Assembly: GCF_963678975.1 (NCBI RefSeq)
Contig: NC_089281.1
Coordinates: 7,589,277-7,653,276 of the forward strand
DNA length: 64,000 nt
From: Dysidea avara
Lineage: Eukaryota; Porifera; Demospongiae; Dictyoceratida; Dysideidae
Reading direction: 5' to 3'
Part shown: piece after piece, positions 24,799 through 63,969 of the stretch
Position numbering within the stretch: the stretch's first letter is position 1
How the letters are laid out: each line of letters opens with the position of its first letter
Translations under genes and position numbers: made by a program
The notes under the pieces: model-generated
Databases searched by the model: none
What the model was told of the DNA's origin: nothing
The model's input: the letters and a program-made list of their open reading frames with translations, nothing else

Positions 24799-27700
24799 TC
24801 AATCTCTAATTTCATCCATGAATTCCATGAAGGATTCACGAAAATGAATGTAATGTGAATCGTCATCTGGTTCTGAGTTTACGCTAAGTTTACAGAGGGA
24901 GGAAATACGATAACATATGAGAAACACATGCCATGCAAGTTACAGTACTATCACAACTATATCATGTGGAATAACACAGATTGCTTATAAAGATGCACTT
25001 CCTCAGTGAGTATGATCTCATGGAGGATATAAGCATGGTGACTATGTCTGCTTCATTTATAGAAAGACTTATAAGCCACAAACAAAAATGATGCATACTG
25101 AATAGTTAAGCACGCAGGTAATGTATACTAGCTATATATATATATAGCCAAACTGTTCCTAAGACAGTATGCATGTGCATGTATAGCTACAATTTTATTA
25201 TTTTCATGTATACTCAACTATGTAACTATCAGCTATAATACACCCTTTGGGTAAGAGTTTTTGCTAGACAGGTTCTTGGCTAGACCTCAGCATTAACTGG
25301 TTGGAGAGGTGCAAGTGTGCAATAGTTAAGCTAAGTAATATTTTAGACAGGTTGCAAGATTACTGGTATTGGTATATGGTGCATGAAAGCATTATAAATA
25401 ATCAATGGAAGCTAAATGTTCCATATTAAAGGCTTACAACCAAAAAGAAAGTGACACGTCAATAACCAAATATGCATGTCATTATGTAGCAACATACTTA
25501 CATTTCGCAAACAATGGCTTTTCTCCTCATGCCTTCATCCACAATAATACCAATATCACTCACAGACACCACACTGGGAGAATTGCTGGGTTTATGTCTA
25601 CAGTAAGTAGTGAGTTTCTTGATAGTTTCTTTGTATACTAGCAATTCCATGACAACAAATGATACTAATGGCAGTACCACCAAAACAATAGTGATTGCTG
25701 ATAAGAAAAGTGGATCAAAACTGTCAACAAGTGGTATCATTGAAATCAAGATAATCAATTGCAAAACCATACCATCAAAAACATTAAGTAATTCACTTTC
25801 ATATGGTTTTAGTATTAGCTGTATTAATGCTAACAATGTACTAGCAGTGATCAATAGATACTGTGTATTGTTGCCATTAGAGGGGTTAGAAATGATAATT
25901 GAAATAATAATCAACCGGCAAATCATGTAATAAGCTGCAAAGCATCGATATTTGTCCTTGTAGCATCCTTGAAACTGATCCAGCAATGGCTTTATACTTG
26001 TAAAGTTGATCTTGTGATTGAGGAATGGCTCAAGTAGAAGTAGAACAGGGAGGCCAATCACAATTACTAGTGTACATAACAACGACACAATAAAATATGG
26101 TAGATGACGACCATTAAAATACTCTATGTCAGGTGATAGGTAAGTGTAGACCTTATTCACATTATCAAATGTCAGTGATCTCAACAGCAACAGTGAAGTC
26201 GTAGCCACAGAAGTATATGACAATAAGAAGAGGAAACACACAACATGGATTATTCCTCTGCTTATGAATGCTGAAAACTTGTGAGATGCTCTGGCTGATT
26301 GGCAGATAATTGCTACAATAAGAGTAACAGCTAGTGGATGTATATAATGAATGAACTGCTGGTCAATGCCACTCATATTTCGTACCAAGCAAAGCTTTCC
26401 TAGAAACTGTGGAGTAACTTTGACGATACTAGAAATGATGCTTATTGTCATGTGCAGTCCCTGAGATATGTGTAAGTTCTGGTTCAACAGGATATCCAGC
26501 ACACTGTAATAGTATGTGATAGCATACAAATAGCCAACTCCAACATGATAGTAAGTCATAATAAACACTATCATAACTATGACTACCCAATATAACATTG
26601 ATAATGTAATTGCCAGTAGTGATTGGCTAGTTGTACACTTGTCAACACTGACACATTCTACAGAATCAAATGAGAGTGTGTAATTTTCACTGCAACTACC
26701 ACAAGCAATGCCACTTCTTTGAGAGGTACACTGGTTTTTCCTCATTGGTGAAAGCTGATAAAATCCATTAGTAGTTTCACAACAGGTAAAATTACAATAG
26801 TTCAGTGGACAAATTGAAACAGTTGACTTGTTAATAGCTAAACCAAACCAATAACCTCTCTTAATCATTGAGGTACTACCAGAACAGGACACAACATCAT
26901 TGTAACATGTGCATGTTTCTGTGTAGTCATCATAGTAGAAACCAGGGTGGCATGGTGACAGTTCCGTGACTAGTGTGATAGAAATTTCTGATTGACTGCT
27001 AACATATGATGTAATAGACATCGTGAAATTAGTTCTTTTTGTAATCCTCTTACCAGTCACAGTGACACCATGAAATGCTTTACAAGCAACTGACACAAAC
27101 TTTGACCCATCAGTTTTATAGTCTTGATCCTTACCACTAATCACAAAGTCCACACCCCCAGCAGGTTGATCATTAAAGCCAAGTACACAGGCATCAATTT
27201 TAATATCTTGACCAAGCATTACATTAGATATATAATACGTTTTGCAAGTTTTGTTATCATCATCAATACATGTAGCTGGATCATAGAAGGCCAGTTTCTT
27301 AGGTGGATTATTGTGTGTCACTTTCAACCCAGCTATGCTGTTACTCAAGCAATTCTCGTCACAAGATGCTAGTGCATTGATGTAGGTACCAGGACCAATG
27401 AAAGCACTATTATTATGAAAATTTATATTCATAGTATTGTATACAGTACTCTGAAGAGTCTGAATGTTGTGCATTAGTTCACCATAAATAGCTCCACCGT
27501 GAAGCTCAGCATTGTTGTGAAGGAATATAACATCAGAATCATCTGTAAATGCCACATTAAAACCATTACTAAGATATAAGGCTCCACCATCTCTAAGTGC
27601 AAAATTATTATTAAACATTGTTGATGAATTCATTCTAAATGTCAAATTGGATTGCAGGATAGCAATAGCCCCACCATTTTCAGCAGTGTTGTTTGTAAAT

Positions 27701-30130
27701 GTTACCCTTACATATGCTTCAAGTGCAATGTCAGAGTGGTCATTGCAATACACGGCTCCACCATCATGTCCAGCCTTATTAAGGTAAGAACTTATAATAG
27801 AATTTCCATTAAATTTGAGTTGAGACTCTGTACCGCAATGCACAACCCCTCCATTCAAGATGGCACTGTTGTGAAAAAATGTTACATTAGACTTTCCATC
27901 AAACAACATGTTGGAGTTGTCTCTACAGACCAGAGCTCCACCTGTGGTTGCGCTATTGGCAATAAATGTTACTGAAGAATTCCCATCTACGACAATATTA
28001 CAATTTTTGTAAGAGAAAACAGCTCCTCCATTATCACTGGCACTGTTCCCCTTAAATGTTACAGTAGTATCTCCGTCTAATGACATATTACCATAAACCT
28101 CCAATTGTACAGCTCCACCATTGATCGCACTGTTTCTATTAAATGATACTTTTGACTTTCCATTAAACAAGACTGTAAAGTTGTAGTAAGAGAATAAAGC
28201 ACCTCCATTTCGTTGAGCAGTATTGTTACTAAAGGTTGTTATGGAGTGTTGACCAAACAAGAGGGTACAAAATTTATAGCAGAACATTGCACCTCCACCA
28301 CGAATAGCATCATTGCCACTAAATGTCACTGAAGAGTTCCCTCCAAATAGTACATTGGAATATTTATCAGTGTATAGAGCTCCTCCAAAAGTTCCACTGT
28401 TGTCAATAAATGTAATTATCGATATTTCAAGAAAAAAAATTTCAGAGTAGCTTTCAGAGGACAATGCCCCTCCATATGTCGCAATGTTGCCTTCAAAGTT
28501 CACCGATGTGTTTCCATCAAATGACACACTGGAAAATCGTACAGACTGCAGAGCCCCTCCATTAGTGGCACTATTGTCATTGAATGTCACTGTTGAGTCT
28601 GCATCAAATATGATATTGCAATTATTTTCGGAATCAATGCCTCCTCCTCCATTGCTGGCGTCATTATCTTCAAATGTCACTGTAGACTTTGCGTTAAATG
28701 AGATAATACAATATCTTGCAGAGTACACTGCTCCACCATATGTAGCCCTGTTGTCTTTGAAGGTCACTACTGAGTTTTCATTAAATGTGATGTTGCAGCG
28801 ATCAAAAGATTCAATTGCGCCTCCTCTTTCACTGGCATCATTACCATTAAAAGTCACATTTGAGTTTCCATTAAATGAGATTGTACATAGAGCAACAGAA
28901 TAAACAGCTCCTCCTGAATCAGCTCTGTTGTCATTAAAGGTCACTTTGGAATTGTTATTAAATACAACTTTACAATAGTAGTGAGAGAGGATTACGCCTC
29001 CATAAATGCTAGCACCGTTGCCAGTAAATGTCACCTGTGATTCTTCATCAAATGTTATGGTAGACTGTTTTAGAGAGTACAGGGCTCCCCCAAATACACC
29101 AGCACTATTGTTATGAAATAGTACCACTGTATTCTTAATAAACAAGATCTCTGAGTTGCTTACAGAATAGATTGCACCCCCAAGAGTTTTTGCTCTGTTG
29201 TCTTTAAAATTTACGACTGAGTTTTCCCCAAAAGATATTCTGGACTGAATTAAAAAGATAAGCAGCTCCACCGTATGATAGTGCTGTGTTATTGATAAAA
29301 CTAATGTCTGTTTTGTTGCCAAATGTAATCATTGAGTTAATGACAAAGAGTCCTCCACCAGCAGTTGCTGTGTTGTGTTGAAACAATAGTTTACCATTAA
29401 GATGTAGTCTATGATGTGAAACATAAATTGGAACTCCTTGGTTTTGAATGAACACACAATCTTGTACAAATAAGAAATTATCCAATCTGTTTGCTGGACC
29501 ATCAATGTAGACTAGACTATCAGCAGCCCCATTAAAGGAGAAATTACAACTGTCTATTACAAAGTGCAGTTGAGTATGATTTGTATACAAGAAATGTATC
29601 GCTGCACCATGACCCTTGTACTCACTGTTATGTATGAACTCACAACTGCTGATGTTCACATTACTTGACACTTCTGACAGTTCAACAGCTTGTCCTGTTG
29701 AGTTATGGAAAGAACAGTCTTGAATTGTAATATTGGATGAATTGTAAAACTGAATTGCTGGTTTATTCTTAGATCCACAGCCTACCCAGCTGATTCCTTC
29801 AATGGTTACATTACTGCAGGAGATGAACTTGACTGCTCCAACACTACTACAGTTTATAGAAACATTTCTTTTCCCAACAATTGTGATGTTCTCAAGATCT
29901 TCTAGTGTTATGAATGATGGCAGTACAATATCCATTGTTACTTTGACAACACCATTGCTGGTGATGTTAGTCAGTGCATACACCATTGAATGAAAAGAAT
30001 GATTTCTGATGTCACAGCAAGTGAGTTCATCTTGTTCACTTTCCTCATCTGGAACACTGACAAGGACTCCACCAATCTTCCCAAAGAATACTGTCAGTAG
30101 AAAGACACTTGTTATCCTTAATGCCAACAT
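24799..30130 (-). CDS. Beta-helix (Pmp-repeat) multi-pass membrane receptor, copy 1, frame-disrupted
   Basis: Two exons: 30130-25502 and 24883-24799, joined by GTAAGT...TTAG with the same phase as copy 2. The N-terminus is a signal peptide (MLALRITSVFLLTVFFGK). Next come parallel beta-helix-like repeats rich in N-glycosylation sites, then about 21 repeats of about 36 residues with GGA(I/V/L)xS...F...N. A Cys-rich region follows (CHPGFYYDDYTETCTCYNDV...CGSCSENYTLSFDSVEC), then about ten hydrophobic segments (LAITLSMLYWVVIVMIVFIM onward) and an acidic tail (EPDDDSHYIHFRESFMEFM). Compared with copy 2, four extra bases around 29241-29246 shift the frame within the first GGA repeats, so a full-length product is not predicted unless this is an assembly error or polymorphism. 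Everything else stays open. Function unknown; the layout suggests a cell-surface adhesion or recognition receptor. Proteins of this kind are often auto-annotated as outer-membrane Pmp, which is misleading. Confidence 0.85.
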
Positions 30131-30174
30131 GACTAGCTGCAAAAACACTTGCTCCACCACTCTGCAACATGCTC

Positions 30175-30182
30175 CATTTATA
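30175..30182 (-). promoter_or_regulatory. TATA box of copy 1
   Basis: TATAAATG on the minus strand, 45-52 bases upstream of the start codon, followed by GGAGCATGTTGC. The same TATAAA(A/T)G plus GGAGCATGTTGC arrangement precedes copy 2, so it is conserved between the paralogues. Confidence 0.6.
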
Positions 30183-33854: not shown

Positions 33855-34871
33855 CTATGACTGTGGGGCAACAGAGTTGTTTATCCCCAACCATCTCTTC
33901 AAATGCTTCATCATTGGTTCACGGACTTGTTTGAAGTACAAGCCATACACAAGTAGAGTGTAGAATTGTAACACATAATCCATATTGTAAAATATTACAT
34001 AATTCATGAACTTGTGATAATCTTGAGAGTCGATGAAATATCTTCCTAGAACATGAAATGGTACAAAAAACAAATCAATCAATGCCTGGCCAGAAATGAC
34101 CACAAGCAGCGTGGTGATTGGTTTCCTGTTCCGTTTGATGTTGCGTTGTTTCTTCTTTAAGGCTTTAAGGTTTTCAGACTGGATGTTGTGTCCTGCTAAC
34201 CTTGTCTCATTGTCAATTTGTTTCTGAATCTGGTGAGCTTTCATGGCTAAGTAAATGTTGAGGACTACTGTAATAATTGTTGTCACAAGAGCTGGCATTA
34301 AGGCAAAAACAATAAGGTCAATGAAACCGTTTCCTTCATGAATGCAAACTCCAAACTCTGGCACATAAGTAACATCATCTCCATGTTTAGCAATGAAGTA
34401 AGCAGTAACTATGACAGCTAACAACCATGTCCCACCAATAACAGCACACATAAAACGAGGTGTCATCTTCCTCCTGTGCTTGAATGGAGAAGTTACTGCT
34501 ATCACTTTGTCAGCTGCAAGTATCACGAATGACCAAATGTGAACATAAAAGGGAAGAATTCGAAGCTGCAGCGCGTAACAGCTAATGGGAGGTTCCACTC
34601 CCAACTGGTAGCTAATCATCACGGCACCAGTCATTATGGTGCCAGACAGTGTGATTACCATGTCAGATATCAGTAGGTTGGCTAGAAATATATTGTGAGA
34701 CTTGTGTAAACTTCTGGTAACTTTGATAGTAAAGACCACCCAACTAACAAATGACAAGTTAACCGTGGTAGCAATCAGTTTGAATAGCAAAGTTAGGTAG
34801 GCCACATATCCTGGAAGAACGGAGCTTTGATGTTCTATCTCCTGACTGGTTCCTGAGCCAGAGAAATTCAT
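33855..34871 (-). CDS. Class A (rhodopsin-like) G protein-coupled receptor
   Basis: Single exon, 338 residues, with seven hydrophobic segments at about 22-48, 58-84, 98-122, 140-162, 184-210, 252-276 and 290-313. Class A hallmarks: NxxxxxLLISD with Asp70 in TM2, Cys98 at the top of TM3 and Cys176 in the second extracellular loop as a likely disulfide pair, and a basic third intracellular loop (KKKQRNIKRNRK). Departures from the family: the DRY position reads DKV (121-123), TM6 lacks CWxP (VVISGQALIDLFFVPFHV), and TM7 has LLVYGLYF instead of NPxxY. There is one early N-glycosylation site (N2). The ligand is unknown; such orphan receptors are typical of sponge-specific expansions. The frame is intact. 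The promoter is not obvious. Confidence 0.85.
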   Translation of the reverse strand: MNFSGSGTSQEIEHQSSVLPGYVAYLTLLFKLIATTVNLSFVSWVVFTIKVTRSLHKSHNIFLANLLISDMVITLSGTIMTGAVMISYQLGVEPPISCYALQLRILPFYVHIWSFVILAADKVIAVTSPFKHRRKMTPRFMCAVIGGTWLLAVIVTAYFIAKHGDDVTYVPEFGVCIHEGNGFIDLIVFALMPALVTTIITVVLNIYLAMKAHQIQKQIDNETRLAGHNIQSENLKALKKKQRNIKRNRKPITTLLVVISGQALIDLFFVPFHVLGRYFIDSQDYHKFMNYVIFYNMDYVLQFYTLLVYGLYFKQVREPMMKHLKRWLGINNSVAPQS

Positions 34872-36496
34872 TCTATATACTAAGTGAGAACTTTCTTCAA
34901 GCTAGCACTACTGGGACACACACTAAACTGACACATTATTGTCACCTATATTTGCTTCAAAACAGTTCAGGAAACCCCTGTTTATAACACAAACAATGTG
35001 ATAGTTAACAAAACACTTCTGTTGCAATAACAGTAGTCACATACTGTAATTCAGCAAACTGTATATGATCTCCAGCATACGGTGTTAGCCTATTCAAATT
35101 CAACATTCTCCCACACATGATTCTATTAAGATCTCAAAGTTATAGTTAGTGTACTACTTTATCAATAACCTGGCATGGCTAAAGTATAGGGATAAATTTA
35201 CACTTCAGGTAATGATGTCTCGTTTCAACACATTGTAACAATCCATACTATAGCCTATAAAATTCCTCATATTTCTTATACTAGTTTGTTAATCTTTTTG
35301 TAAGAAAAACTTACGCATCAAAAGAATGGCTCCAAACCTATTAGCCTAAAACTACACACAGCCAAAATTTAGGAGCTCTGTGTGGACAGACACCACATGT
35401 TTTCTTTCTTCATGTTAATAGTACCACTGGGTGTATAGTGTGCTGGCTATCTTGGACACATGACACACTACCATGAGCCTTTTCAGACCACACATCCATG
35501 TTTCTCAGAATTTTCTCTTATACGAGGGGGAGAGACAGATGATTACTAGTGTGTTAGTGCAAATGTAGACAGTTTACTACTATCATAGCTACAGCTAGTG
35601 AATGAAGAGCTACTCTCAAGACTTGGCTAGTTGTTATTTACTCTACCATTTTTCTTGCTGATGTATCAGTTATAGTTAACAGTACTACAACAAATTCATT
35701 TGAGGACAAATTGCCACAGTTGATTTTAGCACCATAAACACACAAAGTACAAAACTAATATATGACAAGTGTGTAGATAGTTATGAAGGTGTCCATACTT
35801 GACCCAGACAATCTGATTGTAGGTACCTGTTATTCCACACCCATGGGCGGTCTGTAGGTAGACATTGTACAGTGGTAACATTTAAATATTTTTTGAAAGG
35901 ATCTGACAAACAAGGCTTCCATGATCACAAAAGCAAAGCTAATCTACATTCTTTTTTTCATAACTCCACCATTAGAAACCAATTTAACCTATGGCTGGCT
36001 TGCACTTTCACTATTGCACTTCAACACAACAGTCACTCTAATAGTTTTTCAGCACTCACCTTTTGTACTTTTCCATTTTAGAACCTTCCAAACCTTTCTT
36101 GTATAGTTTTGAACTAAACCTTTTATTTTTATAAGGTAGAAGGACAGCAATGGTCGTGATCCTTGGTGGAGGTCAAATTGACAAATGTAGCTACAACATT
36201 AAACAGTACCTCCCATAATCAAATTGCTTTAGGCATGTTTATAAAACGAATGGAGTGGTTAAACTTGGGTGACTTAGCCTCAATATACTTGGTAAATCAA
36301 TGATCAAAAGTGAGATATTCAATGCCTGAGGTCTTCCTACTAGCAGGATTTAACCATTTTAAAAACCTGCTAGCAGGTCTTTTAGTGAATTGTGTGTAAA
36401 ATACCTTATTAACAAATATCAAAGCATTTTATCATGCATAGCATTTTCTAAGGAAGGTTTTTTCCTGATAGTTCACAGGTATGTGGTTATTTTGCA
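34872..36496. other. Spacer with a dispersed repeat
   Basis: No gene seen. The segment 35590-35880 is a repeat copy listed separately. The remainder is AT-rich with no coding signal. Confidence 0.4.
35590..35880. repeat. Dispersed repeat, copy a
   Basis: Shares GATAGTTATGAAGGTGTCCA, TACTTGACCCAGACAATCTG, GTAGGTACCTGTTATTCCA and GTCTGTAGGTAGACA with 43025-43330 in the same orientation. The upstream part (CTAGTGAAT...CTCT...CTTGGCTA) also aligns. Non-coding; class unknown. Confidence 0.75.
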
Positions 36497-41200: not shown

Positions 41201-41340
41201 GCTTACCACAGGGAAGTGCAACCATTTTCATGAAAGGAATGTGGAGAGAAATTAGACGCACTTCAAGTGGATTGAGGTATGATAATTCTAGTGGAAGGTG
41301 TATATTATTAGCTTTGGAGCAGTCCACACTATAATGCATT
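38236..41340. other. No gene recognised
   Basis: AT-rich spacer. It contains a G15 run at about 39364-39378 and repeated ACAACTA(G/A)C words at 39340-39350 and 39780-39850. No ORF shows a family match. Confidence 0.4.
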
Positions 41341-42458
41341 GTGGCATGTCTTGCAGACCCACTGCAAATTACAGATGAACATCATTTCATTGAGGGAGAC
41401 CACAAAGAACAATACACCAAGTTTCCCTTACCATGTCCCAACAAATGTGCAGCATCAAGTGTCCCTTGTGAAAACCTGGAAGCACACAGGAAAGAGTGTT
41501 CTATTGAAGAAGTTGAGTGTTTAGCTGATTGTGGGAAGGTATTACAGCGACAACATCTGACCGATCATCTTGAGAACAACTGTCCACGTCGTAAGGTTGC
41601 CTGTGAGTACTGCCAAATTACAGAAGAACATCGATTTATTGAGGGAGAGCACAAAGAACAATGTCCAAAATTTCCTTTATCCTGTCCCAACAAGTGTGAA
41701 GTTGACAGTGTCCTTTGTGAAGATATGGAAGCACACAGGAAGGAGTATCCTCTTGAAATGGTACAGTGCGAGTATCACAATGTGGGGTGTGAAGAAGTGA
41801 TGATACATAAGGACTTAGAGAAACACAAAATGGGAGATCACTCGTCCTGGGCTGTATCACGACTTGATATTGCACTGGAACAGATCAACACATTGATGAT
41901 TGTAGTAAATCAAACAGCTCTCCTTCAAGGACACACTTTCCATGCCAGTGCTAGTGGTACATCCGTAGTTAAAGCAGCAAAATGGTCTGTAAAGCTAACA
42001 GCAATGACGGCTATGATCAAATCTGGTAATCAGGTATGCCCAGTAATTGTGAAGGTTGCTGAACTTAGTAAAAAAAAAGAAAGATAAGTTAAAATGTTGA
42101 AGTGACTCTTTCTACAGACATTAAAGGGTACAAGGTTTGCTTATGTCTTTACCTTGATGGTGATGGTAGTGATACATACCTGCAAGTGTACCTACAGCTC
42201 GTGAAGGGTTCATATGATGACAACCAATATTGGCCAATGAGGAGAAAGTTTGAAATAAAACTGTTGAACCAGATCAGCGATTGTGACCACCATTCTATGA
42301 CAATAATAACTTATGATGATCAAACCCCAGACATTGGTGGTAGAACAACAGGTTGGGGTATAGCATAATTTATTTCTAGTGAAGACCTCTGTGAAGTAAC
42401 TCCCACGCATCAGTATCTCAAAAATGATTGCATTTACCTCCAAGTTAGCAAACTTTAG
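41341..42458 (+). pseudogene. Broken TRAF-like gene (zinc fingers plus MATH domain)
   Basis: TRAF-type zinc-finger repeats run from 41341 (ITDEHHFIEGDHKEQ, PCPNKCAASSVPCENLEAHR, VECLADCGKVLQRQHLTDHL, then ITEEHRFIEGEHKEQCPKFP and CEYHNVGCEEVM). The MATH/TRAF-C domain is at about 41970-42458 (WSVKLTAMTAMIKSGNQVCP, GYKVCLCLYLDGDGSDTYLQ, KFEIKLLNQISDCDHHSMT, WGIA, FISSEDL, YLKNDCIYLQVSKL). There is no RING domain and no intron. The frame is lost at about 42075-42120, and TAA at 42366 replaces the expected Gln of WGIAQFIS. TRAF proteins are cytoplasmic adaptors of TNF/TLR-type receptors. This copy cannot make an intact MATH domain. It is probably a truncated duplicate of one of many TRAF-like genes; a retrocopy is possible. 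Confidence 0.87.
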
Positions 42459-46800: not shown

Positions 46801-47752
46801 ATTGTTCAACTCAATTTTCTATCTACTGTTACCTAAATGTTGCTGGGTATTGTTCAATTAGCCACGGGACATCAAACATGTAGTTGAACTGTAACAAGTA
46901 TAGTTCTTAATATCCACATCATGTATTAGTATCACGTGGCCAGACCACATTCTCACTCTCACTTTTTTTGACATCATTAGTCAGCAAGTTAGGGTCTGGT
47001 AAAGTTACGTAAAAGTTGTGTTTGCGATTAAACAGTTACCATAGGCCATGGCTGTTCTTATCAGGAAAATGTTACATAGCAACAGTTTCAGTCCCGTTCA
47101 AAGTTTTGCAGTGGAGTTTATCTTCCACCATGCCAACGTACAACTAGCCAATGAATCAAATCCATCAAATTTTGCTAGCACAACTTTTCCAGACCCTACC
47201 TCGCTGACCAATGACATCACTAAGGAGGTGAAATCAAGATCTGGCCAGTGCAGCATTGGGTACCTGAGCTGATGCTTCTAATTTTCCCATACTGGGAGAG
47301 AGAATATCTACACACGTACAGACCAATCAATTGTGTGAATCAATTTATACATACAGCTTGCCTTTTATCCCTATTGCAAAATCTGGTCTATTATATGTGT
47401 CTTCAATTCCAGTGACTTTGGTGAGGTAAAAAGGAAGACAAGGGGATGTGGCATGGTCAATGCTATCAACATAGCTAGTTAAGTCATCGTCTTCCTTTTT
47501 AAACAGTTTCTTAGGGGGTACGTCTACTCCAAACTTTTCGTCATCTATAAGTATTAAGATAAACTGTGACGATTTACGCCGTTGGTTAAGAATTAAATTA
47601 CCTGGATGTGAAAAATTCGCAAAATGTTCAGGGTTTTTTCGGTAACATTCACTACCATATTTGCATGGTGGCAAAGAGCTTGATGTACTGGCAGAGCTAC
47701 TAGCGATGTCATCTTCCAGTAGACTTCTCTTTCTGGACAAAGAAGAATCCAT
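43884..47752 (-). CDS. TDP1: Tyrosyl-DNA phosphodiesterase 1 with N-terminal PBZ zinc finger (last exon not found)
   Basis: Sixteen in-phase exons: 47752-47602, 47544-47362, 47307-47264, 46888-46833, 46779-46683, 46630-46596, 45331-45239, 45191-45113, 45060-44981, 44885-44807, 44760-44575, 44523-44475, 44424-44358, 44310-44203, 44116-44014, 43968-43884 (about 498 residues). Residues 29-50 form a PBZ finger (C30, C36, H43, H49). Both HKD half-sites are present: THHSKMMLL (H188, K190) and PHIKTY (H415, K417). Other signatures are [70 protein letters not shown] and [15 protein letters not shown]1 removes stalled topoisomerase I peptides from DNA 3' ends. The intron at 47308-47361 needs a GC donor. 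Introns carry at least four inverted-repeat elements. The final 20-30 residues are missing from my model; a distant last exon or 3' loss are both possible. Confidence 0.9.
45380..45535. mobile_element. MITE-like element, TATAGCC ends
   Basis: About 31-bp inverted repeats (left TATAGCCTAAATATTTCGAG, right CAAAATATTTCGGCTATA) flank an interior holding a 26-bp tandem duplication of TTTATAAACGATCCCATAGG-type sequence. It lies in intron 6 of TDP1. Confidence 0.82.
45631..45942. mobile_element. hAT-type MITE with perfect 8-bp target duplication
   Basis: Ends TAGGGTTGGGCAATATTAC and GTATCGCCCAACCCTA are hAT-like inverted repeats. TTCAGTTT flanks it on both sides (45623-45630 and 45943-45950). It is 312 bp, non-coding, in TDP1 intron 6. 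Confidence 0.9.
45985..46431. mobile_element. hAT-like MITE, CAGTGGCGGAT ends
   Basis: Starts CAGTGGCGGATACAGGGGGG and ends CCTAGATCTGCCACTG. TATCC flanks both sides. It carries an internal GGTTTCAGCTGAAACC palindrome near 46014. Non-coding, in TDP1 intron 6. Confidence 0.75.
46937..47247. mobile_element. MITE-like element related to 11236-11565
   Basis: TGGCCAGA...TCTGGCCA ends plus inner arms (GACATCATTAGTCAGCAA / CTCGCTGACCAATGACATC). The interior shares blocks with the element in the RecQ relic (AGTTTTGC, CCATGCCAA, CCAATGAATCAAATCC). It occupies most of TDP1 intron 3. Confidence 0.82.
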
Positions 47753-50700
47753 AGACTACTGTTCTTTCTAAATAATGATCATGATGTGCTTTATTTGAAA
47801 AGGTAAATTGGAGCAAGATTTGTATTTGTTCGGTGTAGATGGGTAGGGAATACGTAATCTATGGTTCTGGATTGTTTCACAACGACGAGAGGCTTCGTGG
47901 TATATATCTGTATGTTGTTTGTACCTTGGGGAAGCACCCTAAATGCACACACTCTAGCTAGTTATCTGTAAATATCCCCAACCATTTTTTATATCCATCT
48001 TTTTTTTTTTCATTGGATGTAATCAGCATTTTGCTGCCTTCCAATTATCATAATCAATCAAACCCTAGTGCCTTGTACAGCCAGGCTGAACCTTTTGGTG
48101 TAACCCTGTCTTTTGAGACAATTCAGATCATGTAATAAATAGCCTCTCTCTTGCCGCTAAATCTCTCACTCTGCTAGTTCTGTGTGCAAAACATAGATGT
48201 AGAAAGGAGGCAAACAGGGCCACAAATTACATGCCTCGACAAACAACTACCGGTAGTTTCTTCCAGACTTCAGTCTCGTCGTGCCAACCATAGATTATAC
48301 TATGCACAAACCACTTGGTGTAAGCCTAACCTTAATGTGTAGGTAGCAGATTATGAGCTTTCATATTGACTCTTTGATATTGTGTACCTTCGTATGTAGA
48401 CTGTGCCAGCACTGAAGTGCACAAATGCACCTATTGTTAATTTTATGTTTCAGATAAGGCAACTGGCAGCCTGGCACTAGTTCCCAGCTGACTTTCAGAT
48501 CTTGTAACTTTTCCCCCTTTGATTTCTCTAACGTGCCTGCACTTATCTGCAAAGTATAAAAAAAAAGATCAGGAAAGTCAGCTGGCCTAGCCAATGCGGG
48601 TGGCTCATATCTTCAGTGCACCTGATTATTTTATTGTTAGCTAGGTTAAGTAGTCATTTTAAGTCTCCAGTTCCTGATAGGTTAGGTAATCCTAAGGCTG
48701 CAGCACATGTTGCTGTCAGACCTTCAGTGCTGGTCACTGTAAAGTGCTAATAATAATAATAATTAGAGTTAGCTGAATGCTCTGTTAGATTATTTCGTTG
48801 CTTATCTTAGACATGAAAGGGTTACAACCTCCTCTCCTGAGTCTTCAGCCTATTTAGCCTTCTCTTCCACTATGCTAAGTAATACAAATAAGTTAGTTTA
48901 TAACTTATACATTAAGATGACGAAATAATGGTGAAAACTTGCATGGTGTCATAATAATGACCAAATTTAGGCAGTGAAACATAACAATGCAGACAGAGGA
49001 TCTGAAACATGATTAACAATGAATGGCCTAATAGAATTTTAAAAAGTAGTGATACGCACTGCAATTGTTCCATTAGCTAGTTTTGTAAAATAGCTATCAT
49101 GTTTTACTAGCGTATGGCAGTATTATGCGATGATGTATGCTTATACCATGTGTGTGATCTGTGCATGTCAATGCCAGACTAATGTCATAAATGGTAACTG
49201 GTGGCCTGCCTGGACCACCAATGTGGCATGCATAAATACTAGTGGGCTTGAATATTAATGGTCTGAGGCCTTCAATTTGTATCACTGCTTTCTTGTGTCT
49301 TTTGGCCAGGAGGTCTTGCAACCTCTGGGACTAACATCTTTATACTGTTTATTCTTATAAGAACATAGTTACATAGTTTGATAGCAACTGCTGTACTATA
49401 CAGCAATGACTTGAAAACTGGAAAGATATGCTGTGTTGCAATTGAGAAATCAAAGATTTTATGTCATGATTGGCAAGCCTATCCCTAGCAGTGTTTGCTT
49501 CACCTATATATGTCTGACCGGTCCGACTGTTCCCAAAAGTTTACATGATGAACATGGAAACCTTTCATGAAGACTCGCCACGATGCTGTTTAGCATCTGT
49601 CTAGTATCCAAAGTTTTAAAATCTGTATCTTTAGCTATTGTTACTGATATAAGCATAGAGGATTGCTAGGCAGCAAAACATGGCCACTAAATTTACTATT
49701 ATGAGTGAAATAATTCAGTGCCAAGTGTTCATGGAATTGCACTAATAATGAAGCATCATGTAGCACTGTTCCCTAGAGACGTAGTAATAACGTTTTCCTC
49801 ACAAGGTGTCTAGATTTTCTGAAAACAAACTTATAAGTCACAAATGTCTTTTGCCGTGGTAAAAGTGCTCCTTTGCAACATAGTGAATCTTCAAAAACTA
49901 CCCTCATGATGCTTACAACTCGAAGATCACAACTTTGTAATAATAAGTACAGTTTAGGATCCTATTAAGGTTTCATACCTTGCCTCCATAGGCTCCAACA
50001 CATTTAGGACATATTGATTATTATGTTTATTACAGTGACCAGCATTGAAGGTTTGTGCTGCAGCCTTTGACTCACCTAAGGAATGAACTTCACATTACTT
50101 ATAGGTGTTGCACAATTGCAATTATTAACCACCACATTGCTAATCTATGCGGTCATATATACTGTATGTTATATATATAGTATACTTTGCAGACCACAAT
50201 ATCAATAACTTCTATGTACTAGAGACTAGATAAAGTCACCAATTTTCCACAGATCAGATGCAATATTTCTTTAAATCCACGAAAAATATCTCTTATGCCT
50301 TTGGAGAAGCATATAGGCCATAGATTCTTCCCTACAAAATTTCAAAACTGCAGCTTTCTGCTGCAGGAGCTGCAAAGGTGACTAGTTCAAATGTTATCAA
50401 TTATCTGTCGCCAAAAAAGGCACTGCTCATAATGCTTGAAGCTTATCAATCAAGTCTTTCTGTGCTCAATATGAAAGAGGGACTCTTACATATACAATTA
50501 TTTTTGGCAGTAAATTACAAATTTCTCTCTTATACTTCTCTTTAAATGTTGTTCAAATACCAATTAAAATGAGATTATTTAATAGTTGATTGTTATATTT
50601 GACTGCTCTATTAGAGTATTTCAATCTGGTTGATGTCCTGGACATTTTGGAGAAAAGCTGTGCACTTTTAAAAGAGAAAGGATAGCAAATTGTATGCTAG

Positions 50701-52000: not shown

Positions 52001-52306
52001 TGTTAAAATGAAGAGAAAGAGTTCCCATAATAGGGAGGATTTAACACCCTTGGAGAGTAACTACTGATTACTCTGAAGGAGTAACACTTGCTCTGAAGGT
52101 GGTGTCACTCTTCAGAGTAACCGTTATTCTCTTCAGAGTGTTGATTACTCTCCAAGGGAGTTAAAGGAGTAACACTTGCTCTGAAGGTGGTGTCACTCTT
52201 CAGAGTAATCGTTATTCTCTTCAGAGTGTTGGTTACTCTCCAAGGGAGTTAAATCCTCCCTACACTGGAAACTCTTTAGAGTGGTGGTTACTCTTCATTT
52301 TTAACA
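52001..52306. mobile_element. Foldback element with internal 88-bp tandem duplication
   Basis: Ends TGTTAAAATGAAGAG and CTCTTCATTTTTAACA are inverted, and the arms continue (GGGAGGATTTAAC / GTTAAATCCTCCC). Inside, a roughly 88-bp unit containing GGAGTAACACTTGCTCTGAA and TTACTCTCCAAGGGAGTTAA is repeated in tandem, with AGAGTAA/TTACTCT words on both strands. Confidence 0.82.
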
Positions 52307-55300: not shown

Positions 55301-56474
55301 AATTATTCTCAGCCATATAGCTAGTTATTTTGCTCATTTGCTGTTCTTCTGTTTGCTTACAGCCATGAAATGGTATTCATTGTGTTGTTGCTCTTCAGTT
55401 TGTGTGGGCACTAAAATTTCTACCATAAAACTATTGATTGATAGTTTTGCTCATCTGATGTACTTCTATTTGTGTCTCTCCCTTTTCCCATAACCATTAT
55501 GTCGTTCAACTGTCAATTATTATCTCTTCGATTTATATTTTTCCAAATTCCATCACGTACCAAGTGCACTGCTGTCTCTAGCAATTTCAGCATCAAACAA
55601 TGTACACAGAAAGCCAAATGTATAGTTGCCTATTTGGGGGTGTATGCAATTGTGTCAGGAAGAGGTTAATAATAAATAAACAGTAGCAGCAGTTAATAAA
55701 CACCTTAAAAATGAATAGTTGAAGTGTATGTATATGACATATATACACCGTCTGACTAACAACTTATGTATTTATGTAACAACATGCAAACAGGGAACTC
55801 ATGCATGCAGTCTCTTAGCACAGTATGTCATTTTTATGCTAAGTGATAGCAATTATTTCCTGCCTTTTGCATTCATTTGGTATCAACAGTTGCCTCCTCA
55901 GCTAATAGACAGCAAATCATGTAGGTATAAAAACTATGAATAGGTCCATTAATCAACAGGTGCAGTGCAATAGATAAACTATCGTAATTGAGTAAGCTTC
56001 CACCAATAGAAACCACTACACTGTTCATTGCAATATAATTATGTGATAGTCACTATGTTATACTAAACACTTGACTCCAGTCAACACATTTACTCCACCT
56101 ATGGCTATAAGCAGATAATACATATACAGTGCATGGGTATTGTTCATGCAATGTTTAATATCATTCCAAAATGTCAAACACATTTTGCTTAGCGATGCCA
56201 TAGTCATAGATCGTTTTAATTGGAGGTATATAAGCGACTGTTGTTAAACTACCATGGGAAACCTTGCATGTTCATTGTTCCATTGATCCATGCATGCATT
56301 AGGGGTAGAACCCCTGTGACATACTGACATTTCACTGTCATTTATATACCCCATCCCATACACATGTAAACCCAAGCTAAAATCTGAGTGAATGATTATG
56401 CATGAAATATCCTATACACACTGCATGTAAAAAATCACTGGTCAGTGACATTCACCAGGCAGTTTAAGTATAGT
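52307..56474. other. No gene recognised
   Basis: AT-rich spacer. It includes the dispersed repeat copy at about 52745-52960 (partner 21470-21690) with the AAATACTCTAATAGAAC motif at 52811. Near 54140-54210, CACTTCAAGCAGTGTATTA is duplicated, followed by TATTATTG runs. No ORF with a family signature. Confidence 0.4.
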
Positions 56475-56722
56475 TATGTATGTATGTATGTATGTATGTA
56501 TGTATGTATGTATGTATGTATGTATGTATGTATGTATGTATGTATGTATGTATGTATGTATGTATGTATGTATGTATGTATGTATGTATGTATGTATGTA
56601 TGTATGTATGTATGTATGTATGTATGTATGTATGTATGTATGCATGCATGCATGCATGCATGTATGTATGTATGTATGTATGTATGTATGTATGTATGTA
56701 TGTATGTATGTATGTATGTATG

Positions 56723-56754
<32 letters not shown>

Positions 56755-56786
56755 TGTATGTTTGTTTGTTTGTTTGTTTGTTTGTT
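56475..56786. repeat. Long TATG tetranucleotide microsatellite
   Basis: About 310 bp of TATG/TGTA units, with a CATG-variant block at 56641-56660 and a TTTG block at 56761-56786. The period of four makes open frames on both strands (MYVC and HTYI repeats); these are not genes. Confidence 0.97.
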
Positions 56787-57320
56787 TTATATGTAATGTG
56801 CATGCATTTTCATGTACATATATGTTATGCACAATGCTTTAATCAATTGAAAGCAAGCTCACGTGTATGGTTAGGCCCAGTATACTATTATACTACTGAC
56901 TTTACCTAATACTATAGTGAAAGCATTAACTGCTTGATTATGTTTTCTCTGAAAATAACACACCACAGACTATTTGGGAACAGACGATGGTTCAATCTCT
57001 TAAAAAGTTAATAGTCTAATTAGATTGTATGTAAATAAAACCCTCACAAATTTTAAGGCAGGGCTAATAGCTATGATTTCATCTCCATTATTTAATGATT
57101 TTGCTACAGTTATAATACACATAACATGCATGTACAAACACAAAAAGATTAATTATACACTGCAGCTGGTATGCTGGTACAGCCTATAGGTATATCCTAA
57201 AGAAAAAATATCTGTTAGGTCAGTAAATATCTAGCACTTTTTTTATCCATGAACTGAATGTAGGTAGCTAAGCCACATTTCATGGTGTATATATATAAAT
57301 TACCTACGTATATTCCTCAC

Positions 57321-57403
<83 letters not shown>

Positions 57404-58842
57404 TTCATGCCCACTACCAGTCATAGAAGCATGTTATAAGATGATGGTAAGGTTTATTGTTGAGTACGCCTTACCTGTATGGTCTCGATCTATACTGAAA
57501 TCAATTTTCTGAAACTAAAAATGATTCGATGAAGAGCTGTAAGATCGTACTAAATGATACATTTTCACCAGTCTCAAGTATGATAAAACAACTAGGATGT
57601 CAATGTAAAGTAACAATTACGTACAATACAATTATGTCGTATTTATGGACCATCTTAGAATATAACACTAACCATATACTTGGGGCTACTCATGTATTTA
57701 AACTACATCAATTGTCAGCTGAAATATATGCTTATCATGCATGATTTTGTATTTTCCTTTCAACCATCACTTTATGAAACAATTTCTGGTGGAGGCTGAG
57801 GTTGTCACTTATAGTAATTTAGAAAAGAATTTTAGTTTTTTTTTGTAACTGATATTGTGTAAGTGCACTGTGAAAAGACTATAGTGAGTAGGAGGAACTA
57901 TAATTTAGTTCAATAAAATGTCCATGTTGTGGATTCTGTTTTTGATTTTAGTTCAGAATTCAATACTTGTAACCCTACATGTTAAGTGTTGCTACTGTAT
58001 GCCAGTAATTGTGAGGCTATATAAGTTCAAAATAGAAGCACAGTGACTTACATTCACATCCACACATTATGCAATGTGATTTAAAGCACCAGTATTTTTG
58101 TGCTATATAGCAGGCAATTCAAAGTATGGTGCTTTGGATAATAATCATAATATGTAGTACGCATTAAAATCTTCAAGCTTCATACCACAAATGTGTAGGA
58201 ATGAAAGTACAAAAGTATTTACAAACATATAGCAAATGTCAATTTAAAAAATATAATTTGAGTATAGTGTGTATATAATCAACTTGTATGGCTATAACAT
58301 CTGGATAAGATATGTATAGTCTCTGACTTTTAGTATAGAGTTACCAAATGTTGTCTCTTCTGTCCATCCAAATTTCAGAAAAGCAACTGGACCAAAAAGA
58401 TATAATGATAGTAACCTCACTAACATGTGGTCAGACCTTGACACAGTGTTATCATTGTTAATAAATGGTTTACATACATTTAAAGTAATAAGATCTTAGG
58501 TGTTAACTGACTTTCTCCAGAACTGACCACCATCACAAGCGTGATGCCCGGCCAGAATTAAGGGGTGTCCTCTAAATTGAGTTATGTTCTAGCATACTCA
58601 TTTGTTTCACCTTATTTATTAATTATGTCTGTGCATGTGCTTTGTGTTACATCCTAACTATTGGGAATAGAAAATGAAAAGAAAAGGTGGATTACGTTGT
58701 GTGTTACATAATATACAATAATCATGATGACTTGCGTGATCATGTGAGGAATATGGCTACTAGCTATGACGTATACCATTCACTGTGAAAAATAAAATCA
58801 TTGATGGGTTTCATGATTTCATCATACTAGAATTTCTTCAAC
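56787..58842. other. No gene recognised
   Basis: AT-rich spacer upstream of receptor copy 2. The last about 90 bases (from 58755) resemble the region upstream of copy 1. No other gene seen. Confidence 0.4.
57322..57400. repeat. CA dinucleotide microsatellite
   Basis: About 79 bp of uninterrupted CA repeats. Confidence 0.98.
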
Positions 58843-58850
58843 TATAAAAG
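58843..58850 (+). promoter_or_regulatory. TATA box of copy 2
   Basis: TATAAAAG, 42-49 bases upstream of the start codon, followed by GGAGCATGTTGC as in copy 1. A start site about 25-30 bases downstream would leave a very short 5' UTR. Confidence 0.62.
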
Positions 58851-58891
58851 GAGCATGTTGCTGGTTGGTGGAGCACTTGTTGCAGTCAATC

Positions 58892-61800
58892 ATGTTGGCA
58901 TCAAGGATAACAAGTGTCTTTCTGTTGACAGTGTTTTTTGGAAAGATTGATGGAGTCCTTGTCAGTGTTTCAGATGGGGAAAGTGAACAAGATGAACTCA
59001 CCTGCTGTGACATTGGAAATCATTCAATGGTGTATGCACTGACTAACATCACCAACAATGGTGTTATCAAAGTAACAATGGATGTTGTACTGCCATCTAT
59101 CATAATACTGGAAGATCTTGAGAACATCACGATTGTTGGACAAAGAAACACTTCCATAAATTGTAGGAGTGTTGGAGCAGTCAAGTTCATCTCCTGCAGC
59201 AATGTTACCATTATAGGAATCAATTGGATAGGGTGTGGCTCTAAGAACAACCCGGTAATTGAATTTTATAATTCATCCAATACTACAATTCAAGACTCTT
59301 CTTTCCATAACTCAACAGGACAAGCTATTGTCCTATCAGAAGTGTCAAGTAATGTGAACATCAGCAATTGTGAGTTTACGCATAACAGTGAGCACCAAGG
59401 TCATGGTGCAGCAATACATTTCTCATCTCAGAATCATACTCAACTGCACTTTGTAATTGACAGTTGTAATTTCTCCTTTAATGGGGCTGCCGATAGTCTA
59501 GTCTACATTGATGGTCCAGTAAACAGATTGGATAATTTCTTATTTGTACAAGATTGTGTGTTCATTCAAAATCGAGGGGTGCCAATTTATGTTTCACATC
59601 ATAGACTACATCTTAATGGTAAACTATTGTTTCAACAGAACAGAGCAACTGCTGGTGGAGGAATTTTCGCCATTAACTCAATAGTTACATTTGATAATAA
59701 AGCTGATGTTAGCTTTATTAATAACTCAGCACTATCATATGGTGGGGCTATTTATCTCACTGATTCTAGAATATCGTTTGAGGAAAACACAGTTGTAAAC
59801 CTTAAAGAAAACAAAGCAAAAACTCTTGGGGGTGCAATATATTCTGTAAGCAACTCAGAGATCTTGTTTAATAGAAATACAATAGTACTATTTCATAAAA
59901 ATAGAGCTGGTGCATTTGGGGGAGCCCTGTACTCTCAAAAACAGTCCACCATAACATTTGATGAAGAATCAAACGTGACATTTACTGGCAATGTTGCTAG
60001 CATCAGTGGAGGAGCAATCCTCTCCCACTACCATTGTAGAATTTCATTTAGTAACAATTCTGAAGTGACCTTTAATGACAACAGAGCTGAATCTGGAGGA
60101 GCTGTTTACTCTGCCAGTCATTCTGCCATGTCATTTAATGGAAACTCAAATGTGGCTTTTAGTGGTAATGATGTCAGAGAAAGAGGAGGCGCAATTGATT
60201 CTTTTGATCGCTGCAACATCACATTCAATGAAAACTCACTGGTGACCTTTAAAGGCAACAAGGCTACATATGGTGGAGCAATGCGCTCTGCAAGATATTC
60301 TATTATCTCATTTAATGCAAAGTCAACGGTGAAATTTGAATATAATGACGCCAGCAATGGAGGAGGAGGAGGCATTGATTCCAAAAATAATTGCGATATC
60401 ATTTTTGATGCAAATTCAGCAGTGACATTCAAAGGAAATAGTGCCACTAAAGGAGGAGGTCTACAGTCTGTAGGTTTCTCCAGTGTATTAATTAGTGCAA
60501 ACACATCATTGATATTTGAAGGCAACCGTGCAACATACGGAGGAGCATTATCCTCTGACAGTTATTCTGAAATATTGTTTCTTGAAACATCAACAGTCAT
60601 ATTAACTGACAATAGTGGAACACTTGGAGGAGCTCTATACACTGATAAATATTCCAATGTACTATTTGGAGGGAATGCATCAGTGACATTTAGTGACAAT
60701 GATGCTATTCATGGTGGAGGTGCAATATTCTGCTATAAATTTTGTAGCCTCTTGTTTGGTCAACACTCCGTAACAGCCTTTAGTAACAACATGGCTCAAC
60801 AAAATGGAGGTGCCTTATTTTCCTATGACAATATCACCATCTTGTTTGATGGAAAGTCAAAAGTATTATTTAATAGAAATAGTGCTGTCAATGGAGGAGC
60901 TGTACAGTTGGAGGTTTATGGCAACATTTCATTTGATGGAGATACTGATGTAACATTTAAGGAGAATAAAGCCAGTGATAACGGAGGAGCTGTTTTCTCT
61001 TACAAAAACTGTTACATCGTCATTGATGGAAATTCATTGGTAACATTTATTGGCAATAATGCAACCACAGGAGGTGCTCTGGTTTCTAGAGACAACTCCA
61101 ATATGTCAGTTGATGGTAACGCTAATTTAATGTTTTCTCACAACAGTGCTATCTTAAATGGTGGAGCTGTGCATTGTGGTACTGAGTCCCAACTCAAATT
61201 TAATGGAAATTCTATAACAAGTTTTTACCATAATATAGCTGAACACGATGGTGGAGCCATGCATTGCAATGACCACTCTGATGTTATACTTGAAGCATAT
61301 GTAAGGGTAACATTTACAAACAACACTGCTGAAAATGGTGGAGCTATTGCTATCTTGCAATCCAATTTGATCTTTAGAATGAATTCATCAACAATATTTA
61401 ATAATAACCTTGCACTTAGAGATGGTGGAGCCTTATATCTTAGCAATGGTTTTAATGTGACATTTAAGGATGATTCTGATGTTATTTTCCTTCACAACAA
61501 TGCTGAGTTTCATGGTGGAGCAATTTATGGTGAACTAATAAACAGCATTCAGAGTACTGTATCCAACACTACAGATATTGATCTGCAGAATAATACTGCT
61601 CTTGTAGGCCCTGATGCCTACATCGATGTACCAGGATCTTGTGATGAATACTGCTTTGGTAACAGCATAGCTGGGTTGAAAGTGACGCATAATAATCCAC
61701 CTAGGAAACTGGCCTTCTATGATCCAGCTACATGTATTGATGATGATAACAAAACTTGCAAAACATATTATATATCTAATGTAATGCTTGGTCAAGATAT

Positions 61801-63969
61801 CACAATAGATGCCTGTGTACTTGGCTTTAATGATCAAACAGCTGGGAGTGTTGACTTTGTGGTCAGTAGTAAGGATCAAGAGTATAAAATTGATGGAAGG
61901 TTTGTGTCAGTTGCTTGTAAAGAGTTCCAAGGTGTCGGTGTAACTGGTAAGAGGATCTCTAACAGGACTAATTTTACAATGACAATTGCATCATATGTTA
62001 GCAGTCAATCAGAAATTTCGATCACACTAATCATGGAACTGTCACCATGCCACCCTGGTTTCTACTATAATGACTCCACAGAAACATGTATATGTTACAA
62101 TGATGTTGTGTCCTGTTCTGGTGGTACATCAATGATTAAGAGAGGTTATTGGTTTGGTTTAGTTAATAACAAGTCAACTGTTTCAATTTGTCCACTGAAC
62201 TATTGTAATTTTACCTCTTCTGAAACTAGCAACGGATTTTATCAACTTTCACCAATGAGGACAAACCAATGTATGTCACAAAGAAGTGGCACTGCTTGTG
62301 GTAGTTGCAGTGAAAATTACACACTCTCATTTGATTCTGTAGAATGTGTCAGTGTTGACAAGTGTACAACTAGCCAGACAATACTGGCAATTACATTATC
62401 AATGTTATATTGGGTAGTCATAGTTATGATAGTGTTTATTATGACTTACTATCATGTTGGAGTTGGCTATTTGTATGCTATCACATACTATTACAGTGTG
62501 CTGGATATCCTGTTGAACCAGAACTTACACATATCTCAGAGACTGCACATGACAATAAGCATCATTTCTAGTATCGTCAAAGTTACTCCACAGTTTCTAG
62601 GAAAGCTTTGCTTGGTACGAAATATGAGTGGCATTGACCAGCAGTTCATTCATTATATACATCCACTAGCTGTTACTCTTATTGTAGCAATTATCTGCCA
62701 ATCAGCCAGAATATCTCACAAGTTTTCAGCATTCATAAGCAGAGGAATAATCCATGTTGTGTGTTTCCTCTTCTTATTGTCATATACTTCTGTGGCTACG
62801 ACTTCACTGTTGCTGTTGAGATCACTGACTTTTGATAATGTGGATAAGGTTTACACTTACTTATCACCTGACATAGAGTATTTTAATGGTCGTCATCTAC
62901 CATATTTTATTGTGTCGTTGTTATGTGCACTAGTAATTGTGATTGGCCTCCCTGTTCTGCTTCTATTTGAGCCATTCCTCAATCACAAGATCAACTTTAC
63001 AAGTATAAAGCCATTGCTGGATCAGTTTCAAGGATGCTACAAGGACAAATATCGATGCTTTGCAGCTTATTACATGATTTGCCGGTTGATTATTATTTCA
63101 ATTATCATTTCTAATGGCAACAATACACAATATCTATTGATCACTGCTAGTACATTGTTAGCCTTAATACAGCTAATACTAAAACCATATGAAAGTGAAT
63201 TACTTAATGTTTTTGATGGTATGGTTTTGCAATTGATTATCTTGATTTCAATGATACCACTTGTTGACAGTTTTGATCCACTTTTCTTATCAGCAATTAC
63301 TATTGTTTTGGTGGTACTGCCATTAGTATCATTTGTTGTCATGGAATTGTTAGTATACAAAGAAACTATCAAGAAACTCACTACTTACTGTAGACATAAA
63401 CCCAGCAATTCTCCCAGTGTAGTGTCTGTGAGTGATATTGGTATTATTGTAGATGAAAACATGAGGAGAAATGCTACCGTTTGTGAAATGTAAGTATGTT
63501 GCTATACATGAATAATTGGCTTACTACTCAGGCATGTTGTAGCATAGATTTCAGTATATATCTAGAATTATTATTTGCATATTTCTTAGTTACTCTTTAC
63601 TATCCACCTATATCATTACTAACACTGTTTAAATGCTTTTGCCTACTATCAGGCAGTACAACATAATTTTAACAATGCGTTGCATTAGTGTTTAATAAAG
63701 TACATCCACTGTTTGTGGTTTAAAAGTCATATACGATGTATAATACCGTGTATTTAAGATGAGATCGTGTATTAATAGTGCTATATATACTTGTTAAGTA
63801 TGATGCATGTATATGTATGGCATTGTACCTATGCCAGTCTATTTTACAGTATCACAATTATATATATTTTTCTTCCTCTAGCATACTGAACTCAGAACCA
63901 GATGATGATTCTCAATTTATTAATTTTCGTGAATCCTTTATGGAGTTCATGGATGAGATTAGAGATTGA
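58892..63969 (+). CDS. Beta-helix (Pmp-repeat) multi-pass membrane receptor, copy 2, intact
   Basis: Exons 58892-63489 and 63882-63969, joined by GTAAGT...CTCTAG, give 1561 residues. The start at 58892 begins the signal peptide (MLASRITSVFLLTVFFGK); the in-frame ATG at 58865 would precede it and lies close to the TATA box. Domains: right-handed beta-helix-like region (about 60-250, many NxS/T sites); about 21 GGA-type repeats (about 250-880) with GGA(I/V/L), F and N at fixed spacing; a spacer; a Cys-rich membrane-proximal region (about 1045-1160, CHPGFYYNDSTETCICYNDV, CGSCSENYTLSFDSVEC); about ten hydrophobic segments (1164-1495); and a cytoplasmic tail ending in an acidic motif encoded by exon 2 (EPDDDSQFINFRESFMEFMD). 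Probably displayed at the cell surface. GGA/FxxN repeats were first described in chlamydial Pmp adhesins; here an intron and signal peptide show a eukaryotic gene. Ligand and signalling unknown. Confidence 0.93.
63490..63881 (+). other. Intron of receptor copy 2
   Basis: A 392-bp GT-AG intron between the codon for the last membrane-side Glu and the acidic tail exon. The matching intron of copy 1 is 618 bp. Apart from the splice sites I see no shared long block. Confidence 0.8.

Follow-up and report, generated by a model that had tools for sequence, protein, structure and literature searches.

How do two genes in one neighbourhood come to differ throughout their predicted ectodomain and yet to match almost letter for letter, silent sites included, in their membrane domain? 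The question is raised by a 64,000-nucleotide stretch of the genome of the sponge Dysidea avara (NCBI RefSeq assembly GCF_963678975.1, contig NC_089281.1, positions 7,589,277 to 7,653,276 of the forward strand; the window, whose base 1 is contig base 7589277). Within it, gene A (58892-63969, forward strand) and gene B (24799-30130, reverse strand) form an inverted pair. A and B are old paralogs, and their sequences point to a recent exchange of a bounded tract that spans the membrane module.

A bounded low-divergence tract in an inverted gene pair

Both loci lie on one 30.7-Mb contig of the 551-Mb assembly, with start codons (ATG at 58892 in A and at 30130 in B) 29 kb apart. The assembly contains Wnt genes, which are not known outside animals and occur in none of 14 control genomes, and its gene style and GC content suggested a sponge. 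The preliminary description of this DNA had placed and oriented the two copies correctly, and its ends are the gene ends, from the ATG to the exon 2 stop codons ending at 63969 (A) and 24799 (B). Splicing of both genes is predicted from the sequence. The open frame that holds exon 1 of A runs from 58817 to 63490, and the TAA that closes it at 63491 overlaps the splice donor (AT/GTAAGT). Exon 2 is in frame in both genes, and the tails that they encode end alike. The introns have about 15 nt at the donor in common and otherwise short matches at chance level; upstream, about 150 nt can be aligned at 74% identity, and the outer flanks are otherwise unalignable. Exon 1 of B carries a 4-nt insertion (29245-29248), absent from the preliminary description. 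Because the piece downstream of it stays open for 1276 codons, the insertion would represent a recent frameshift or an assembly error, and, the latter case apart, the assembled B is probably a null copy.

We aligned A and B both as DNA and by codon. The nucleotide difference is 12.1% up to about position 62293 and 2.2% beyond it; a two-rate change-point model gains 65 log units, whereas 1000 permutations gain no more than 10.2, and the longest identical run is 170 nt (permutation maximum 152). Silent-site divergence (dS) is 0.271 upstream of the tract (95% interval 0.232-0.312; first 1129 aligned codons), 0.034 inside it (0.014-0.058; 376 codons), one eighth of that in the rest, and 0.533 downstream (0.20-1.21; 51 codons). 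The tract contains 9 silent differences, compared with 48.5 to 78 in 734 overlapping upstream windows of approximately equal silent-site number. With a split at 62350, 66 of 405 four-fold degenerate sites differ before and 7 of 146 after (P = 3e-4).

The left edge of the tract is soft, falling at 62293 (62276-62311) by all differences and at about 61985 by silent differences alone. At the right edge the adjoining 70 nt (63421-63490) carry 9 differences, and exon 2 differs by 6 silent and 4 amino-acid-changing substitutions, a count whose first codon is misaligned. The tract begins in the Cys-rich segment, some 75-90 nt upstream of the first membrane helix, spans the membrane module and leaves the end of the tail outside. 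GC at four-fold sites is 0.255/0.240 in the tract and 0.248/0.254 upstream; all-codon GC at third positions (GC3) is 0.351 versus 0.295/0.305, a difference that composition may explain. GC-biased conversion finds no support at four-fold sites, where GC is no higher in the tract. Searched against the whole assembly, the tract DNA matches A at 100%, B at 98% and the next copy at 78% (best 40 of 277 candidates).

These measurements bear out what had been read by eye in the preliminary description, namely frequent silent and non-silent differences in the ectodomain together with identical runs of more than 100 nt, silent sites included, in the membrane domain. The sharp fall in dS at the Cys-rich segment, which it had expected of a converted sequence, is present and is followed by a renewed rise. 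Because the silent-site tract has two sides, introns and flanks are unalignable and no third copy exceeds 78% identity, its proposal of recent ectopic (non-allelic) gene conversion between A and B, here over approximately 1.1 kb, is well supported as a reading of the two sequences.

A large family and probable exchange among its members

A and B follow a family plan that comprises a signal peptide, Pmp-type beta-helix rungs, a Cys-rich neck, a polytopic membrane module and a spliced tail. A matches Chlam_PMP (PF02415, 1.6e-44) and Beta_helix (2e-14) in Pfam as well as TIGR01376 (2.2e-52), and possesses the FxxN and GGA(I,L,V) repeat motifs of PF02415 and TIGR01376. Its hydropathy profile suggests a start resembling a signal peptide and some 8-9 putative membrane segments. 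The Cys-rich segment and membrane module have no match above cut-off in Pfam or NCBIfam. Neither an autotransporter barrel nor a Pmp middle region matches A in Pfam at E <= 1, and a hydrophobic, helical-looking module stands in that place; no GPCR (G-protein-coupled receptor) family of Pfam matches the membrane module at E <= 1 (P0001) or at E <= 0.01 (P0004). The ATPITK motif occurs in none of 31 exon-1 sequences, B counted as two pieces. Queries with the membrane module retrieve no relatives from the prokaryote and viral collections, and among solved structures there is a single match (E 0.48). A literature search on sponges with Pmp repeats or a hypervariable beta-helix found nothing, and in a wider one no paper listed, judged by title and start of abstract, presents a comparable family in animals.

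Compared with the assembly, the A protein has 1369 candidate matches, the best 30 of which are all family loci, distributed over 8 contigs and including A and B. A 33-base signature of the membrane module has 138 genome matches with at most 2 mismatches (control, 0); among the places listed, most are on contig C2, and the signature is exact in 22 of 26 sampled members. The search for further members that the preliminary description had suggested therefore uncovers a large family. Rungs number 14 to 23 in each of 28 relatives. In 27 of 30 loci (A and B included) the main open frame ends at a common donor-like context; L035 lacks that context, yet its module and tail are intact. Three of the 30 are disabled as assembled, namely L011 and L014, each cut by one in-frame TAA, and the frameshifted B. 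Of the 22 loci long enough to contain it, 17 (A and B among them) have a last exon with a tail motif like YRESFMEVMDEIED at E <= 0.005, two (L012, L023) show one weakly, and in three (L017, L020, L030) none was detected; L031-L034 end too soon for this search, and L035-L038 were left out. Four loci at C8:4.06-4.85 Mb (L025, L026, L028, L029) make up two near-identical pairs in opposite orientation, 0.2-0.35 Mb apart, the product of either a recent inverted duplication or an assembly effect.

Silent divergence was scanned strictly among 18 members (153 pairs) and more loosely among 26 (325 pairs), both times without L011 and L014 (broken frames), the N-terminal piece of B, and L026 and L029 (near copies of L025 and L028). 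The strict scan yields six low-dS segments, three over the membrane module (A-B, L015-L022, L019-L021) and three in the ectodomain (L017-L020, and L027 against L025 and against L028, the latter two being one event). The looser scan yields 25 rows, interdependent and many of them from one subfamily, of which nine cover the membrane part and 16 lie N-terminally or among the rungs; on this ground, conversion confined to the membrane module was rejected. Between L019 and L021, dS is 0.90, then 0.109 over 315 codons from a GYWxG motif, then 1.14, which reads as a second clear case of exchange. For L015 and L022, on two contigs, it is 0.118 after 0.71-1.28, and 0.25 at the N-terminus; for L017 and L020 it is 0.020 in the N-terminal part and 0.319 in the membrane module. 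Bounded low-dS segments also join loci that are megabases apart or on separate contigs. N-terminal and membrane-module trees (the latter without L035, although its module is intact) concur on L015-L022, L019-L021 and L017-L020 and conflict for L038 and for L012/L023; with modest support, they constitute weak evidence. A variable outside and a constant membrane part, as described earlier, therefore characterize A/B and some other pairs but do not amount to a family rule, since low-dS segments occur in the ectodomain as well.

Three other origins of the A/B tract can be weighed against this background. A third member, lost or unassembled, might have donated the module to both genes, or old ectodomains might have been fused to a new module. 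Low-dS module segments do exist between contigs of this family (L015-L022), but the absence of a third copy above 78% (best 40 of 277 candidates) and the old divergence in the tail and exon 2 past the tract make this unlikely. Alternatively, the silent sites of the module could be constrained by RNA structure, codon use or low local mutation, so that conversion is unneeded. Median dS over sampled pairs is indeed slightly lower for the module, at 0.76, than for the rungs, at 1.12, but the ratio is about 0.7 and not one eighth; moreover, dS is higher C-terminally in L017-L020 (0.319 versus 0.020 N-terminally) and in L025-L027 (0.126 versus 0.028), four-fold GC is equal inside and outside the tract, and differences reappear within 70 nt of its right edge. 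We consider such constraint very improbable, and silent divergence is far from even along the gene. Finally, the identical architecture and inverted proximity of A and B might suggest haplotypes or assembly duplicates of a single locus, an outcome that the preliminary description had itself set against conversion, but this is scarcely credible because ectodomain dS is 0.27 and the introns (392 and 618 nt) are unrelated, with unalignable outer flanks and starts 29 kb apart on one contig.

Hypervariable rungs and a candidate recognition function

The substitutions that separate A from B have a ratio of non-silent to silent divergence (dN/dS) of 0.35 in the ectodomain and 0.25-0.32 in the membrane part. 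By rung section the ratio ranges from 0.21 to 0.72, always below 1, and no rung position stands out for its number of substitutions. Purifying selection acts on the A/B ectodomain. The recognition or adhesion reading that the preliminary description drew from this pair is consequently weaker than stated there, and recognition emerges as the best reading from six relatives.

In each of these six (L030, L031, L033, L035, L036, L038; rung set without L014, L026, L029 and the N-terminal piece of B), 4 to 9 unique rungs share nearly one DNA sequence, of the form GGAVYC-xx-SSHITFDGNSSVTFNNN-x-A-xxx. The 42-base frame of L031 has 374 matches with at most 3 mismatches (control, 0). In the 622 rung pairs that are 90% or more identical over offsets 8-24, the proportions of non-silent and silent differences (pN and pS) are 0.469 and 0.184 at offsets 4, 6, 7, 25, 27, 28 and 29, 0.060 and 0.076 at offsets 0-3, 5 and 26, and 0.061 and 0.067 in the core. 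For the 41 near-consensus rungs of the six genes, pooled pN/pS is 2.59 (1.85-4.07) at the seven hypervariable offsets, 0.93 in the framework (pN 0.078, pS 0.084) and 1.65 (1.27-2.29) over the whole rung. Five of the six relatives exceed 1 individually: L031 (14.1; 5.4-87), L035 (7.9; 3.2-34), L036 (4.1; 1.5-4.1), L038 (2.55; 1.5-4.9) and L030 (1.74; 1.36-2.74). The left-anchored offsets 4, 6 and 7 alone yield 2.59 (1.76-4.67; gene-level bootstrap 1.40-6.14). The seven offsets were picked by eye from the genes tested; a further set, made up of the seven most variable offsets in five older pairs drawn from six other genes (4, 6, 7, 10, 23, 28, 29), has a pN matched by 0 of 20000 random sets of seven and a pN/pS of 1.91, with 1.20 in the remainder. 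The 41 unique rungs display 39 distinct combinations at six variable positions. In L038 (C2:7756500-7762000) the rungs also repeat as larger five-rung blocks, which suggests that blocks were duplicated as the array grew.

The variable offsets flank the GGA turn, 4-7 following GGA and 27-28 lying between FxxN and GGA, where rung length also varies in the register used here. By analogy with bacterial Pmps, offsets 4-7 and 27-28 may together form one exposed ridge. Such a ridge would run along the solenoid and bind variable ligands, microbial or allogeneic, upon which the membrane module and tail would relay a signal. Because non-silent changes are in excess at fixed rung positions in the relatives, and not because of A/B, we infer a diversified surface-recognition family.

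Two alternatives bear on this reading. A structural adhesion or matrix family, rather than one for signalling recognition, draws support from Chlamydia, whose Pmp-type beta-helices function in adhesion (PMC10715098). The polytopic module, the conserved C-terminal tail and the non-silent excess at fixed positions speak for recognition, but adhesion is compatible with all three; we regard this alternative as fairly unlikely. Targeted mutagenesis, as in diversity-generating retroelements, could instead of selection on ordinary mutations have made the variable codons. Changes do concentrate in the first two positions of a few codons, the third being nearly fixed, and at offset 4 the codon has a final T in all 41 rungs; however, selection on young repeats likewise predicts fixed third positions, and the bases at the variable positions, read by eye, do not single out adenine. 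We judge this origin improbable. On the same informal reading by eye, adenine-directed mutagenesis in particular was rejected.

Taken jointly, that A and B belong to a large surface-protein family, that non-allelic conversion has homogenised their membrane modules, and that the rungs of relatives have diversified for recognition is in our view probable. Several observations count against it. Repeated conversion often leaves raised GC, and GC at four-fold sites is not raised in the tract relative to upstream. Nothing in the A/B pair itself points to diversifying selection. The 28 relatives were the best matches to A and are no random sample; near-consensus rungs were found in only 6 of them, and in L033, one of these six, pN/pS is 1.08 (0.49-2.37). 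Exposure of the variable residues, moreover, is extrapolated from models published for bacterial Pmps and does not come from these proteins themselves.

A more far-reaching proposal, held tentatively and with slightly more doubt than belief, is that well over 100 Pmp-type beta-helix receptors with fixed-frame rungs (29-30 residues, in at least one large subfamily), some seven hypervariable residues per rung, rung sharing, and a constant module and tail serve immune or self/non-self recognition. Rungs would multiply within genes and pass between them, so that a combinatorial binding ridge evolves, and conversion and purifying selection would hold the membrane module and tail constant. If so, a large and rapidly evolving receptor repertoire of an animal is built on an adhesin fold of bacterial type, and candidate genes, positions and a tail motif are at hand for asking how such animals distinguish self, microbes and prey. 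A/B would furnish a clean natural example of conversion limited to one tract in a family of this kind, and phylogenies that rest solely on the membrane module may mislead.

Features of the window and comparison with known systems

Table 1. Predicted features of genes A and B, in window positions.
Feature	Position	Strand	Remarks
A exon 1	58892..63489	+	signal-peptide-like start, N-terminal beta-helix, Pmp rungs, Cys-rich segment, polytopic membrane module, start of tail
Pmp-type GGA/FxxN rungs of A	59654..61522	+	from the first GG motif to the last; 29-31 residues per rung
Membrane module of A	62375..63370	+	about 8-9 hydrophobic segments (hydropathy only); no Pfam family
Putative converted tract in A	62293..63420	+	17 differences in 1128 nt, one 9-nt indel
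A intron	63490..63881	+	GTAAGT...TAG, 392 nt; beyond the donor no alignment with the B intron
A exon 2	63882..63969	+	encodes C-terminus ...NSEPDDDSQFINFRESFMEFMDEIRD, stop
B exon 1	25502..30130	-	frame broken by 4-nt insertion; open pieces 29204-30220 and 25498-29328
Frameshift site in B	29245..29248	-	4-nt insertion relative to A
Tract counterpart in B	25571..26707	-	from DNA alignment with A
B intron	24884..25501	-	618 nt
B exon 2	24799..24883	-	in frame with the 3' part of B exon 1

Elsewhere the window encodes TRAF-type zinc fingers and a MATH domain (41335-42365, forward strand), with an internal 150-nt repeat at 41361-41508 and 41609-41757, a rhodopsin-type GPCR in a 348-residue open frame (33858-34901, reverse; Pfam 7tm_1) and a PBZ zinc finger open frame (47348-47755, reverse; Pfam zf-CCHH). 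A long array of short tandem repeats at 56465-56829 produces an artefactual open frame on both strands. An imperfect inverted repeat at 52016-52277, 73% self-complementary over 273 aligned bases, is perhaps a small transposon relic.

Solenoids with a conserved frame and diversified exposed positions are familiar from the variable lymphocyte receptors (VLRs) and the leucine-rich repeats of plant NLRs, and VLRs are assembled somatically from leucine-rich repeats. The family described here employs Pmp rungs instead, and its variation resides in the genome sequence; if the recognition reading is true, it represents an independent solution to a task done elsewhere by leucine-rich-repeat receptors.

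The closest likenesses in fold are to other Pmp proteins. Those of Chlamydia (PMC10715098) have the same FxxN/GGA(I,L,V) rungs, and in models of them FxxN and GGA lie within the helix and the loops leave one face between the two; this loop-free face is the place of offsets 27-28. They are bacterial autotransporters with a Pmp middle region and a beta-barrel, neither of which was found here by Pfam. The trichomonad family (PMC6701047) is likewise a eukaryotic expansion of Pmp-repeat surface proteins, in Trichomonas vaginalis 90% of them with a transmembrane domain; trichomonad Pmps carry a C-terminal ATPITK motif and a transmembrane domain, whereas the sponge proteins have a polytopic module and a different tail. 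Dictyostelium GrlP, GrlQ and GrlR (PMC1885808) are GABA-B-like GPCRs, unlike the module here, which matches no GPCR family; they are akin to the present family as receptors with a long Pmp-homologous N-terminus (1095-1604 residues).

For the exchange itself, the nearest counterpart is the clustered protocadherin (Pcdh) genes of fish (PMC1852091). They differ from A and B in having cadherin domains, one membrane domain and clustered genes with constant exons, and their GC3 is raised in converted parts, whereas the four-fold GC of A/B is not. In fugu, Pcdh paralogs diverge in the 5' part of the variable exon and are highly similar in the 3' part (79% versus 99.3% nucleotide identity in one table row), a similarity attributed, from silent sites, to regional gene conversion (PMC1852091). 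The bounded low-dS tract between the diverged paralogs A and B agrees with this mode of exchange.

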